DNA of 40,895 bases, taken from positions 1-40,895 of the IMG/VR virus record IMGVR_UViG_3300020473_000003; one strand, written 5' to 3'. Positions 30,784-40,297 of this stretch are shown here, piece after piece (the first letter of the stretch is position 1; the number at the start of each line of letters is the position of its first letter). Below the pieces are notes generated by a model, which saw nothing but the letters and a program-made list of their open reading frames with translations, ran no database searches and was not told the origin of the DNA. The position numbers and the translations under genes were made by a program. The DNA comes from a virus.

Positions 30784-31113
30784 CTAGTTTTGCTTGTCGT
30801 CTGACTCTTCAGACTCTGAAGCGATGCCTTGGATCAGCACCATGTAATTGATCACGTCACGGCAAGCATCGGATACGCTTTCTCCTTTTACTTGTAGAGT
30901 TCCCTGCTCCGCAAACGTCCTGATTCGCTGAAGCTTATCAACAACACGGACGCAGACACCAACAATTGGGTGTATACCGAGAAAGGAGCTGGCTCTAAAG
31001 TTGGCGAACGGATCGTCTGAGCCGCTAGTGTAATCGTGGTTCTTCGCCCTCATTATCGCAAAAGCTTCTCCGCATGTTTCCTCGTGCAATTCCAGTAGCC
31101 GTTTAATGTCCAT
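30784..31113 (-). CDS. Nucleotide-modification-associated (Nmad1/DUF1599-like) protein
   Basis: The start at 31113 (MDIKRLLELHEE, 109 aa) avoids the overlap of a longer reading and has TAGG upstream. The key segment KNHDYTSGSDDPFANFRASSFLGI followed by VRVVDKLQRIRTF and DACRDVINYMVLIQGI is the pattern of the DUF1599 family, MazG-like helical proteins tied to phage nucleotide metabolism and base modification (family knowledge). It lies in a block with a deoxyribosyltransferase-like gene. Confidence 0.75.
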   Translation of the reverse strand: MDIKRLLELHEETCGEAFAIMRAKNHDYTSGSDDPFANFRASSFLGIHPIVGVCVRVVDKLQRIRTFAEQGTLQVKGESVSDACRDVINYMVLIQGIASESEESDDKQN

Positions 31114-31120
31114 ATCTAGC

Positions 31121-31483
31121 CTACTTGTGATTGGATTTGTGTGCCTCGAATTCATGCGCCTTAATTATCTCAACCAACTCCTCCGTGGTCAAGACAATTG
31201 TAATCCCATGCTTGGTGGCGTGCGCCACTTCCATATCTGCCCCTCGACTGTGACCGGGAAGCCTGTAGAGGATGTCCGCTTGTTCGACCCACGGTAGACA
31301 GCATTCCATCCATGTCTTGTGAGAGAAACGACCACTGGTCGGCATCGCCATCGTCAGCATGGGGTTGAACACGGAAAACCCCAGTTCCATTAGCTCCGTT
31401 TGCTTGCGAACTGCTTGCCCCAGATTTTGATAGTGGTCCCCAAGAGTTATCGGGCCAGCCAGGTAGACTCTATATCTGCTCAT
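31121..31483 (-). CDS. DUF4406-like (nucleoside deoxyribosyltransferase-like) protein
   Basis: This 120-aa Rossmann-like protein begins RVYLAGPITLGD, has FNPMLTMAMP and ADILYRLPGHSRGADMEVAHATKHGI. That matches small phage DUF4406 proteins, distant relatives of nucleoside 2-deoxyribosyltransferases. The E in GADMEVA corresponds to the catalytic glutamate position in those enzymes. It may bind or salvage nucleotides. ATG has GGAG upstream. Confidence 0.8.
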   Translation of the reverse strand: MSRYRVYLAGPITLGDHYQNLGQAVRKQTELMELGFSVFNPMLTMAMPTSGRFSHKTWMECCLPWVEQADILYRLPGHSRGADMEVAHATKHGITIVLTTEELVEIIKAHEFEAHKSNHK

Positions 31484-33748: not shown

Positions 33749-33982
33749 TCAACTCCGATTGACAAACAATTGCATTACCTTTATTTGAAACACCTTCGCC
33801 ACGGCGTCTAGTAGCTCTGGCTTTGGAAACCTCTCGCCTCTCTCGTACTTCACCCAAGCGGAACGGGATACGCCCGTCCTTGCAGCCGCCGACGCTATGG
33901 TCATGCCTGCTGCCTTCCTAAAAAGGGCAAGGTTGGTCTTGAATACGTCCCTGGATTTTTCTGTTGTTTCGGTGCCGTTCAT
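33749..33982 (-). CDS. XRE/Cro-C1-type helix-turn-helix regulator
   Basis: This 77-aa protein contains a complete HTH at about residues 15-70: FKTNLALFRKAAGMTIASAAARTGVSRSAWVKYERGERFPKPELLDAVAKVFQI. It lacks a protease or dimerisation domain, so it is Cro-like. Its DNA targets may include the dyads in 805-1098 or the TGCTATTGAC copies. ATG has AAGGGG upstream. Confidence 0.88.
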   Translation of the reverse strand: MNGTETTEKSRDVFKTNLALFRKAAGMTIASAAARTGVSRSAWVKYERGERFPKPELLDAVAKVFQIKVMQLFVNRS

Positions 33983-33990
33983 GGGTCCCC

Positions 33991-35202
33991 TTAGTTGATT
34001 TGGTCTTCCAGTAAAGATCGGATAGTTGAGTCCGATACAACGTCAATCACCAAGTGCACCCGGGGTGTGTCACCTCGGTTTACTGCACGGTGCGGCTTCC
34101 TTGTGTCAAGATACCATACCTCGCCCTCTTTCATGTGGACGTCCTTCTCGGAACCATGGACGTCCCATGTCGTAAAGATCACCCCAGGGTTTGTAATTAG
34201 CGGTATGTGGAAGCGGGCAGCCCTGCCGTCTTGAACGCCGGAGTCGGGGTCCGCTTGATCAGTATGTCTTTCCAGAGTGCCGCCTCCTGGGGCCAGTTTC
34301 ATGAGCCGCACTCGATGGTAAAAGACCGGGTGTCTATCAGGGTCCACTATCGCCCTTTCGGCAATAGCGTTTATCACCGGCAGCTTCTGACGTAGCGGAG
34401 TGTCTTGGAGCCCGAAGGTCTCGCCCGCGTGTTCTTCCTTCCATTTCTTATTCATTTCAGAAGGCTTACCGATCATGCCGGGGTCTGGCGAGTACCCGCG
34501 AAGGGCTAACGCGCTCCATGATTTCGCTTTATTGTAATTAGAATAATGGTTGGCGAAGTCCCCGATGGCCCTTACTTCCTCTTGGGCTGCCTCTAACGAA
34601 TGAAATCGACCCGGCCTGTGGATACGGACGCAATCAACATCCTCCGCTAGCGGTCTAGTCGGGTGCTGTCTCGGCGGCCGCTCGCCAGGCCCGCAGAAGT
34701 ATATGGCGACCATCTCGGAGAAGGTTGTTATTTTAGTGCCAACCCACTTGAAGCCACATTCCTTGGCCAAGCGGTTCGACTCAGCGTCCTCGGTCCAGAC
34801 ATAGAACCAGCAGGGTGCTTCCTTGGTTGCGGCTAGTAAAGCGTGCTTGGCTTTGTCATAAGCGCCGTCCGCCCATGCCATTTTCGTTATAGTTATGTCG
34901 CCGACTATCTTGCGCCCGATCGGGACGCCCTTGTACATTACTATACTAGTGGCAGCGGCAGCGACCTTTTTGTCCATCGCTACAACAGGAAGAGGCTGCC
35001 CCTCGAGTCGCTGAGTCGGTCTCGGCCAGTCTGCCTCCCGGTAAAGCTTCAAGGTTCTCTTGTGGAGACTCTCCGCTAGGGTGTTCTTCTTGGCAGTGCT
35101 GAATGGAGACATACTGTATTGATTGTATTTCTGGTAAAAGCTCTCCAGTTGCAGTAGGTCTTCCATGTTGTAGCCATGCTGCCATGCTTTTTTTTCAGTC
35201 AT
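33991..35202 (-). CDS. GNAT-like plus aspartyl-beta-hydroxylase-like fusion
   Basis: This 403-aa two-domain protein has two recognisable halves. Residues about 80-175 have a GNAT-like fold end: an AWADGAYDKAKHALLAATKEA helix, CWFYVWTEDAESNRLAKECGFKWVGTKI and a last strand. Residues about 185-395 match Fe(II)/2OG aspartyl/asparaginyl beta-hydroxylases. An H313-T-D315 pair in LERHTDQ, then RFHIPLITNP, is followed by EVWYLDTRKPHRAVNRG with distal H371 and R381 in RVHLVIDV for 2OG. All iron ligands are present. It overlaps the methyltransferase stop as TAATG. The pair could build a base modification; a protein or tRNA target is equally possible. Confidence 0.8.
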   Translation of the reverse strand: MTEKKAWQHGYNMEDLLQLESFYQKYNQYSMSPFSTAKKNTLAESLHKRTLKLYREADWPRPTQRLEGQPLPVVAMDKKVAAAATSIVMYKGVPIGRKIVGDITITKMAWADGAYDKAKHALLAATKEAPCWFYVWTEDAESNRLAKECGFKWVGTKITTFSEMVAIYFCGPGERPPRQHPTRPLAEDVDCVRIHRPGRFHSLEAAQEEVRAIGDFANHYSNYNKAKSWSALALRGYSPDPGMIGKPSEMNKKWKEEHAGETFGLQDTPLRQKLPVINAIAERAIVDPDRHPVFYHRVRLMKLAPGGGTLERHTDQADPDSGVQDGRAARFHIPLITNPGVIFTTWDVHGSEKDVHMKEGEVWYLDTRKPHRAVNRGDTPRVHLVIDVVSDSTIRSLLEDQIN

Positions 35203-36224
35203 TACTTGCCTTTCTTAATAGTGTAAAACGTTTCGCCTTCCTTTTTCTCCTTGCCGCTTTTCTTGATCTGATTGTCCGCCAAGCTGACCCGATTGTACTT
35301 TTCTAGGCGCCCGACAAGATAACCCCTCTCAGAACAGATCCGTAGGAGCTCCTCGTCAAGTGGCCACCGCCTGGACCCTATGTTGCATACAAACGTGGCG
35401 TCGGGCTTTAGTGCGGTCATAGTCTTTACAAGAAATGGCTCGTAAAAACCTTCCACCCAGTCCTCGAAGGACGCATAGCGGTTATGGGAGTTCGTGCTTT
35501 CTCCGTCGGCATAACGCTCCGTGTCAAAGTAAGGAGGGCTCGTCAACGCAAAATCGAAGTGATCGCTTGGCAGGTCCGCATCCTCAAAAGGGAGGCAAGT
35601 TAAGCTGGCGGAGAAGTCTGGGCGAAACGGGGCAATAAACTCTCTCGCCATTCGCTGAAGACCCGCCATGGTTCGCGTCGACGGGTCAAACGCTGTATAG
35701 CTGTCGGTAACCGTGGAGAACCCGAGCAGCCGCCCTCCCCATCCCGCGCACGGATCTAGGACCCGACTGGACTTTGTTACGTCAAACGTAAGTGCAATCT
35801 GCCGCACCTTGTTTGGCCGAAACTCGTCCACTCGGGGCGACCCCGATATTCCCATCTCAAGCAGACGATAGAGGTGGTCCCTCAGGTTCAAGTCTCGGGT
35901 CCAAAGTGCGGCACGGGCAAGCCCGTCGGCGAACCTGGGGTCCTGAAGGTTGTCTAGCATCGACTTACCTGTGAGGGAGTGGCGAGTAGTTAAGCGATGT
36001 GGGTTATACAACAGAGACGTCTTGGAGCACCTTGGTTCGCCTCTCACCAGCCCGACGTACTCTATTGATTCCCGGAATTCGGTTGTCAACAGCGGCACTA
36101 ACGTCTCCAGCGTAATGCCGGACAGTTGGGAATGGATCTTGTTAGCAAGCGCCTCCCGATCCATCTCGGGAGGCGCCGGCTCAAGGTCGCCAAAAAGGTT
36201 CTTGCATTCCTTTAAATCAAACAA
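35202..36224 (-). CDS. SPPY-type SAM-dependent DNA methyltransferase-like protein
   Basis: This 340-aa enzyme has SAM motif I VLDPCAGWGGRLLGF (155-169), an acidic Y-x-x-F-DP loop (176-181) and the catalytic SPPY motif IV (229-232), in the order of amino-methyltransferases. The C-terminal half continues YASFEDWVEGFYEPFLVKTMTALKPDATFVCNIG. The N-terminal 140 residues form an extra domain. No target-recognition domain is evident. It starts at TTG 36224 with GGAAGG upstream; the next ATG is 20 codons downstream. It is coupled to the GNAT-hydroxylase fusion, so the two probably work in one pathway. Confidence 0.85.
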   Translation of the reverse strand: MFDLKECKNLFGDLEPAPPEMDREALANKIHSQLSGITLETLVPLLTTEFRESIEYVGLVRGEPRCSKTSLLYNPHRLTTRHSLTGKSMLDNLQDPRFADGLARAALWTRDLNLRDHLYRLLEMGISGSPRVDEFRPNKVRQIALTFDVTKSSRVLDPCAGWGGRLLGFSTVTDSYTAFDPSTRTMAGLQRMAREFIAPFRPDFSASLTCLPFEDADLPSDHFDFALTSPPYFDTERYADGESTNSHNRYASFEDWVEGFYEPFLVKTMTALKPDATFVCNIGSRRWPLDEELLRICSERGYLVGRLEKYNRVSLADNQIKKSGKEKKEGETFYTIKKGK

Positions 36225-39778: not shown

Positions 39779-40297
39779 CTAGCGCCGCGCTATGGCTGCC
39801 TCCTCGGCCTGCTTTACAGCCAACGCTTTGAAGTCGGCGTGGGCTAAGTGATTGCTGAAGGACCCATTGTTTGCATTGTTTATGAGCATACGCTCCAGGC
39901 CCGCGCCGACTATAAATCCATCGAAGTACTCCCAGACGGTATTGTCCTGGACTTCCGTGTTGTAGGCGCTAATGAACCACTCATGCTGCGACTGATAAAC
40001 ACGTTGGCCGTCGGGTAGGGCCCGATTCATCCTGTCTTTGGTTGTTCGCGTCCGCCAGCCGCAGGAGTCCAGCATGACTTCCCCGTTAGGCCGGAACTCA
40101 ACAATCGAGTGACCGTGGAGCTTTATGACATAGCAAACATCCTCCCGCTTGCCGGTCCACCTGGGCATAAAATCGCACTGGCCCGGCGCCAAGTAGGTAT
40201 TGTGCGCTATCTTGACTTGGCTAGCATTCTTGCGCCTGCGATTCTCCCATATGTCGGCGGCTTGCTCATAGCTATTTGGGTAGTTGTCGGAATTCAT
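39779..40297 (-). CDS. Hypothetical early protein with GWRTRTTKDRMN motif
   Basis: This 172-aa protein belongs by eye to a widespread phage family of unknown function. The pattern is N-terminal NTYLAPG, VIKLHGHSIVEFRPNGEVMLDSCGWRTRTTKDRMNRALPDG (about 57-97), then QHEWFISAYN. The second half is specific to this phage. ATG has GAAAGGAC. An 18-bp near-perfect tandem repeat overlaps its leader and the preceding gene's end. Confidence 0.75.
   Translation of the reverse strand: MNSDNYPNSYEQAADIWENRRRKNASQVKIAHNTYLAPGQCDFMPRWTGKREDVCYVIKLHGHSIVEFRPNGEVMLDSCGWRTRTTKDRMNRALPDGQRVYQSQHEWFISAYNTEVQDNTVWEYFDGFIVGAGLERMLINNANNGSFSNHLAHADFKALAVKQAEEAAIARR

Follow-up and report, generated by a model that had tools for sequence, protein, structure and literature searches.

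A TSPPY-type methyltransferase and a GNAT-like/hydroxylase fusion protein as a possible pair of steps in phage DNA hypermodification

In the thymidine hypermodification pathways of phages M6, YuA and SN1, an amino acid is placed on 5-hydroxymethyl-dU and is then tailored by further enzymes. Amino acid:DNA transferases (ADDT) attach amino acids to DNA, by the definition of the family, and in the account of these pathways by Lee et al. the PLP enzymes are reportedly decarboxylases acting on the amino acids installed on 5-hmdU. A PLP-dependent enzyme is encoded within the thymidine-modification cassette of SN1/M6-like phages (PMC9476957). In a second system, CmoA/CmoX/CmoY, which yields 5-carboxymethylcytosine, a SAM-dependent methyltransferase-fold enzyme opens phage DNA hypermodification, genes for ParB-domain proteins lie nearby, and CmoX is a C5 enzyme with an SPPC motif that uses carboxy-SAM (PMC12783734). 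Momylation by the Mom protein of phage Mu joins a GNAT-like fold to phage DNA modification.

The window analyzed here, a virus record of 40,895 bases taken at its full length, carries structural genes of a tailed phage in one block (those for the large terminase, the portal, the head protease and the major head protein) and, on the minus strand, the overlapping genes of a methyltransferase (MT; P0002) and a fusion protein (HYD; P0001). The sequence-only reading had described an SPPY methyltransferase ending as TAATG on the start of a fusion protein, and this arrangement was found as described: both open reading frames are present, and the A at position 35202 belongs to the stop codon of the first as well as to the start codon of the second. 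A 77-aa HTH gene (33749-33982) starts 8 bases past HYD. The features of the pair are as follows.

35202..36224, minus strand: MT, a 340-aa class I SAM methyltransferase of the TSPPY type with a TTG start (open reading frame; Rossmann methyltransferase fold in the AlphaFold2 model)
35754..35756, minus strand: codon of D157 in the MT motif DPCAGWGGR, SAM-binding motif I (sequence; conservation in alignment A3)
35529..35540, minus strand: MT motif IV, S229-P-P-Y232 within LTSPPY (residues 227-232), the N4-cytosine amino-methyltransferase signature pattern (S229, P230, P231 and Y232 invariant)
35200..35204, minus strand: TAATG stop-start overlap of MT and HYD (sequence)
33991..35202, minus strand: HYD, a 403-aa fusion of a GNAT-like domain and an Asp/Asn/Pro-type hydroxylase with an ATG start (open reading frame; AlphaFold2)
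34669..35202, minus strand: HYD residues 1-178, GNAT-like domain that lacks the acetyl-CoA pyrophosphate loop (DSSP order; hhalign)
33994..34650, minus strand: HYD residues 185-403, Fe(II)/2-oxoglutarate hydroxylase domain (PF05118, E 3.7e-12; Foldseek)
34258..34266, minus strand: HYD metal ligands H313-T-D315 (invariant in 42/42)
34090..34092, minus strand: HYD metal ligand H371 (41/42; the exception is a truncated sequence)
34060..34062, minus strand: HYD R381, 2-oxoglutarate-binding arginine (41/42; the exception is a truncated sequence)

Two further matches were noted in the window: a DUF1599 gene (Pfam: nucleotide modification associated domain 1) adjoining a DUF4406 gene (30784-31483), and, at 39779-40297, a match to the family Kyano_Gp96, which takes its name from the Kyanoviridae; the window phage itself is non-T4-like.

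The C-terminal half of HYD matched Asp_Arg_Hydrox (Pfam PF05118) over residues 217-389 with 46.8 bits, against a curated cut-off of 22.6, and the AlphaFold2 model of the protein reached a pLDDT of 93.7 and a pTM of 0.90. A full Fe/2OG hydroxylase with H313xD315, H371 and R381 had been proposed from the letters alone, and these exact positions were confirmed; the HxD...H facial triad and the 2OG-binding arginine were kept in 41 to 42 of 42 aligned members, the sole exception being truncated, so that no loss of the metal ligands was seen among relatives. The best solved-structure match of the domain was L-proline cis-4-hydroxylase (Foldseek E 1.5e-11), which the HYD family profile also matched by sequence (E 3.7e-10). 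The nearest solved folds to the model were proline 4- and 3-hydroxylases, a nucleoside-antibiotic beta-hydroxylase and AspH, with AlkB ranking lower. Judged from the model, HYD is an oxygenase of the amino-acid-hydroxylase type dependent on 2OG and Fe(II). Its C-terminal half has the fold and the metal and 2OG ligands of L-proline cis-4-hydroxylase, AspH and other Asp_Arg_Hydrox enzymes; unlike these, HYD is fused to a GNAT-like domain and stands in a phage DNA-modification context.

Enzymes of PF05118 act on peptides, lipids and free amino acids, and HYD matched weakly, with 19.4 bits where the cut-off is 300, a model for a putative hydroxylase of nonproteinogenic amino acids. On this reading, the targets of HYD and MT would be host or phage proteins, or the two enzymes would make a metabolite derived from an amino acid. 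We consider such a target quite unlikely in view of the DNA-linked gene contexts described below and of the near-exclusive viral distribution of HYD, whose profile found only 2 loci in 84,980 cellular genomes.

The order of helices and strands in the N-terminal half of HYD, a-a-b-b-b-a-b-a-b-b by DSSP on the AlphaFold2 model, is that of GNAT proteins. Homology to stand-alone GNAT-like proteins of 143-161 aa, which adjoin PLP genes in relatives, was detected with hhalign (95.8%, E 6.8e-9) and with hmmsearch (E from about 6e-7 to 0.008); one of these proteins matched Acetyltransf_1 at E 0.0023, under the curated cut-off, and GSG(N/R)A loops were seen in some of the stand-alone copies. Pfam GNAT models gave no direct match to the HYD half itself, and the acetyl-CoA pyrophosphate loop [RQ]xxGx[GA] was found in none of the 42 HYD members examined. 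The GNAT-like domain of the sequence-only reading was upheld, then, by fold order and homology, and found no backing in a direct Pfam match or an acetyl-CoA loop. Because the pyrophosphate-binding loop was absent from all 42 members, acyl transfer by this half, which the same reading had proposed, is unsupported; an active acyltransferase was rejected as a reading of the fused domain, which is probably degenerate and may help to bind substrate rather than move an acyl group. A relationship to Mom was likewise rejected, with no detectable profile similarity to the Mu protein (hhalign probability 0.7% for HYD and 0.2% for the stand-alone proteins). HYD thus has in common with momylation the theme of a GNAT-like fold in phage DNA modification, and differs from it in its fused hydroxylase, the missing loop and the lack of profile similarity.

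In MT, DPCAGWGGR precedes LTSPPY, and D157, G161 and R165 were invariant in the family alignment (A3). The signature [LIVMF]TSPP[FY] of N4-cytosine/N6-adenine amino-methyltransferases is present in MT, and 171 of 182 family members carry the pattern. MT scored 19.7 bits against Pfam N6_N4_Mtase, under the cut-off of 26.7, and a relative (in L001) passed it with 28.6 bits; MT also matched PHROG 12517 (E 7e-8). The AlphaFold2 model showed a Rossmann methyltransferase fold with a mean pLDDT of 73 and most of the catalytic core above 85. An attempt to name the substrate by fold search was uninformative, because many RNA, protein and small-molecule methyltransferases matched equally. In L024, the nearest relative of the window MT (38%), a ParB-like domain forms the N-terminus and was matched at E 2.6e-4 by an NCBIfam plasmid-partitioning model. 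As in the CmoA/CmoX/CmoY system, a SAM-dependent methyltransferase-fold enzyme would open the hypermodification, and ParB-domain proteins are found nearby; the SPPC motif of CmoX was not found in MT, which has TSPPY instead.

Since methyltransferases of the SPPY/NPPY type act on RNA too, and since tRNA m1A58, m2G10 and MnmM methyltransferases were among the many equal fold matches, the module could conceivably modify the tRNA or rRNA of the infected cell. This we hold to be very unlikely, as ParB fusions, ADDT, a TET-associated glycosyltransferase and an M6-type PLP enzyme, all in the same contexts, point to DNA. A simpler DNA chemistry would have MT form N4-methylcytosine or N6-methyladenine and HYD oxidize the N-methyl group to N-hydroxymethyl or reverse the methylation. 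The N4-cytosine-methylase signature of MT agrees with this, as does the presence of only MT and HYD in the window and, within 6 kb, in two related loci (L074 and L100), and MT occurs alone in several cultured phages. Such a scheme leaves unexplained the PLP enzyme, whose substrate must be an amine, as well as the HYD relative beside ADDT in phage LilMcDreamy, where the fetched parts of the genome gave no MT partner; moreover, HYD is of the amino-acid-hydroxylase type, with AlkB lower in its fold list. Overall, methylation followed by oxidation appears unlikely. Staphylococcus, Bacteroides and Vibrio phages were found to carry MT relatives and neither HYD nor PLP (whole records for PLP; fetched stretches and tblastn for HYD); MT can accordingly serve a simpler function, for instance the methylation of bases and nothing more.

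To describe the association of the genes we relied on the 52 non-redundant loci recruited with HYD, of which 15 extend 6 kb on both sides, because the other co-occurrence count includes loci recruited by a PLP query. A related MT was present in 14 of these 15 loci, and every detected MT in the HYD-recruited loci was on the HYD strand, which supports one conserved module of methyltransferase and hydroxylase, proposed earlier as a coupled pair. A PLP fold-II enzyme, which had no place in that proposal and is more widespread than HYD, was present in 12 of the 15. Within 6 kb, L074 and L100 contained no PLP gene and L054 neither MT nor PLP; no PLP gene was found in the window. Two groups of PLP enzymes, related to each other, were distinguished: PLP7, with at least 569 loci, and PLP9, with 103. 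Among non-redundant loci, MT accompanied PLP7 in 52/62 and PLP9 in 34/54, and HYD did so in 21/62 and 25/54, respectively; hits of a second MT profile are included in the MT counts, and contig ends truncate many of the loci. These counts indicate that PLP and MT are the wider core, to which HYD is, as far as gene content tells, an accessory add-on step.

Most HYD loci adjoin gp46/gp47 in T4-like contigs, and the three genes might be neighbors through T4-like synteny alone, with no common pathway. This explanation is highly improbable, as the association recurs in loci without gp46/gp47, outside the T4-like gene order and in the unrelated window phage, and as the PLP enzyme is inserted within the MT polypeptide in Erythrobacter phage ZS04. 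Furthermore, single queries against 50,697 phage records retrieved HYD from just two entries, both of Mycobacterium phage LilMcDreamy, and the phages with close relatives of PLP7 were those of Erythrobacter and Microcystis alone; because so few of these records have them, HYD and PLP7 are not default T4-like genes.

Several gene contexts tie the set to DNA hypermodification. In LilMcDreamy, a cultured phage, a ParB-like protein (gp1), a TET/JBP-like protein (gp2) and ADDT (gp3; E 2.7e-12) are followed by gp4, a full-length distant HYD relative (tblastn E 1e-27; Foldseek TM 0.77/0.84; E 4e-109 with a profile that itself included gp4). The gp2 protein (L029:855-1787) is annotated as a queuine tRNA-ribosyltransferase and has a YHRDGFNF...H...R pattern and a Tet_JBP match of 19 bits, below the cut-off. 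The PLP7 enzyme matched PHROG 7093 (E 2.5e-37), to which the PLP gene beside ADDT in the YuA-like phage LKO4 also belongs. A single 812-aa chain of phage ZS04, ZS04_7 (L115:2326-4764), consists of a ParB-like domain, half of MT, PLP7 and the other half of MT, and ParB, MT and PLP genes are neighbors in Microcystis phage Mae-JY30. L027 contains a PLP7 fragment, a TET-associated glycosyltransferase, found among the larger records only in this locus, and two MTs. Together with the ParB-like domain of the L024 relative, these contexts make a role of the MT/HYD gene set in DNA hypermodification well supported at the level of gene content. The methyltransferase motif of the ZS04_7 chain reads SCPPY; the same polypeptide occurs in L113 (R6L gp1), and the records annotate it only as a DNA methyltransferase or DNA modification methylase.

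The gene set thus shares with the M6/YuA/SN1 systems the PLP family PHROG 7093, in HYD relatives, ADDT, in LilMcDreamy, and tailoring by multiple enzymes in phages. Unlike them, it has a TSPPY methyltransferase and, in HYD loci, a 2OG amino-acid-type hydroxylase, and none of the M6-type markers (the PHROG 7093 PLP enzyme, ADDT and a thymidylate-synthase-type hydroxymethylase) was found in the window. The ADDT search took in the positive controls LKO4 and LilMcDreamy, and only these two were positive, with no match in the window or the other searched HYD or MT+PLP records; a thymidylate-synthase-type hydroxymethylase was found only in LKO4 and Tet_JBP only in LilMcDreamy. The absences of ADDT, TET, the thymidylate-synthase-type enzyme and PLP are provisional, because the relatives are mostly IMG/VR records of unknown completeness, and the window may be incomplete as well.

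With somewhat better than even confidence, we propose that MT and HYD carry out two steps of a post-replicative DNA hypermodification in tailed phages, in which HYD hydroxylates an amino-acid-like side chain. MT would act on an exocyclic amino group of a phage DNA base, as its TSPPY motif suggests, and would yield, alone or with further enzymes, a base carrying such a side chain; HYD would then hydroxylate this side chain, with the degenerate GNAT-like half aiding substrate binding, and in most relatives the PLP fold-II enzyme, absent from the window, would also process it. The sequences show the genes, their folds, the conserved active sites and the association of the genes; we infer that the target is DNA, that the substrate resembles an amino acid, that the steps follow in this order and that the modification protects from host nucleases. 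Perhaps the modified bases hide phage DNA from host defenses. Since ADDT, the thymidylate-synthase-type enzyme and Tet_JBP were not found in the searched records other than LKO4 and LilMcDreamy, MT is left as a candidate enzyme for installing the side chain. The earlier idea of methylation, oxidation and acyl transfer acting in turn on DNA accordingly holds in so far as MT and HYD belong to one conserved module with several DNA-hypermodification contexts, and fails for acyl transfer.

One specific form of the chemistry, which we regard as rather unlikely, is that the TSPPY enzyme transfers SAM's aminocarboxypropyl group onto an exocyclic amine of a base and so attaches an alpha-amino acid to DNA in a single step, that HYD hydroxylates this group and that PLP reshapes it in most relatives, with need for neither a 5-hydroxymethyl-pyrimidine nor ADDT. 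Speculatively, MT, PLP and HYD would then share a single substrate. Phages that have only MT neither support nor exclude it. None of 14 records contained an MTA/SAH nucleosidase, which would have hinted at aminocarboxypropyl chemistry; this result is neutral, because hosts can supply the enzyme.

The observation is not due to chance, as one query gave 23 HYD relatives at 37-49% identity and a profile search of IMG/VR gave at least 232. In the BFVD set of predicted viral structures, only the LilMcDreamy protein matched over both HYD domains, among the matches listed. No paper describing this combination of genes was found in the open-access literature searched, and the gene set is widespread and apparently undescribed. 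If the proposal is true, a route to DNA hypermodification without a hydroxymethylated-pyrimidine start is common to hundreds of phages, most of them uncultured, and a 2OG amino-acid-type hydroxylase is a new tailoring step of DNA hypermodification. Since Erythrobacter and Microcystis phages and LilMcDreamy, which is grown on the laboratory strain M. smegmatis mc2 155, carry parts of the gene set, the chemistry is open to direct measurement.

Other genes were observed in the collected loci. A second methyltransferase (DLPYGT; N6_N4_Mtase E 1e-19) is encoded at L006:7940-8635, and such genes lie beside PLP9 in many loci. A protein of about 350 aa with no Pfam match is encoded between PLP7 and MT in several loci (L212:7726-8784), with a similar opening at L027:250-1281. 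DAHP synthetase and serine hydroxymethyltransferase genes follow HYD and MT in one T4-like contig (L012:8243-10212), and ParB-like, radical SAM and PLP9 genes stand in a row ahead of a terminase-like gene, with no MT or HYD, at L192:4737-7831. GroEL-like and FtsH-like reading frames, judged by eye, were seen in phage contigs (L273:9929-11548 and L212:2575-4362).
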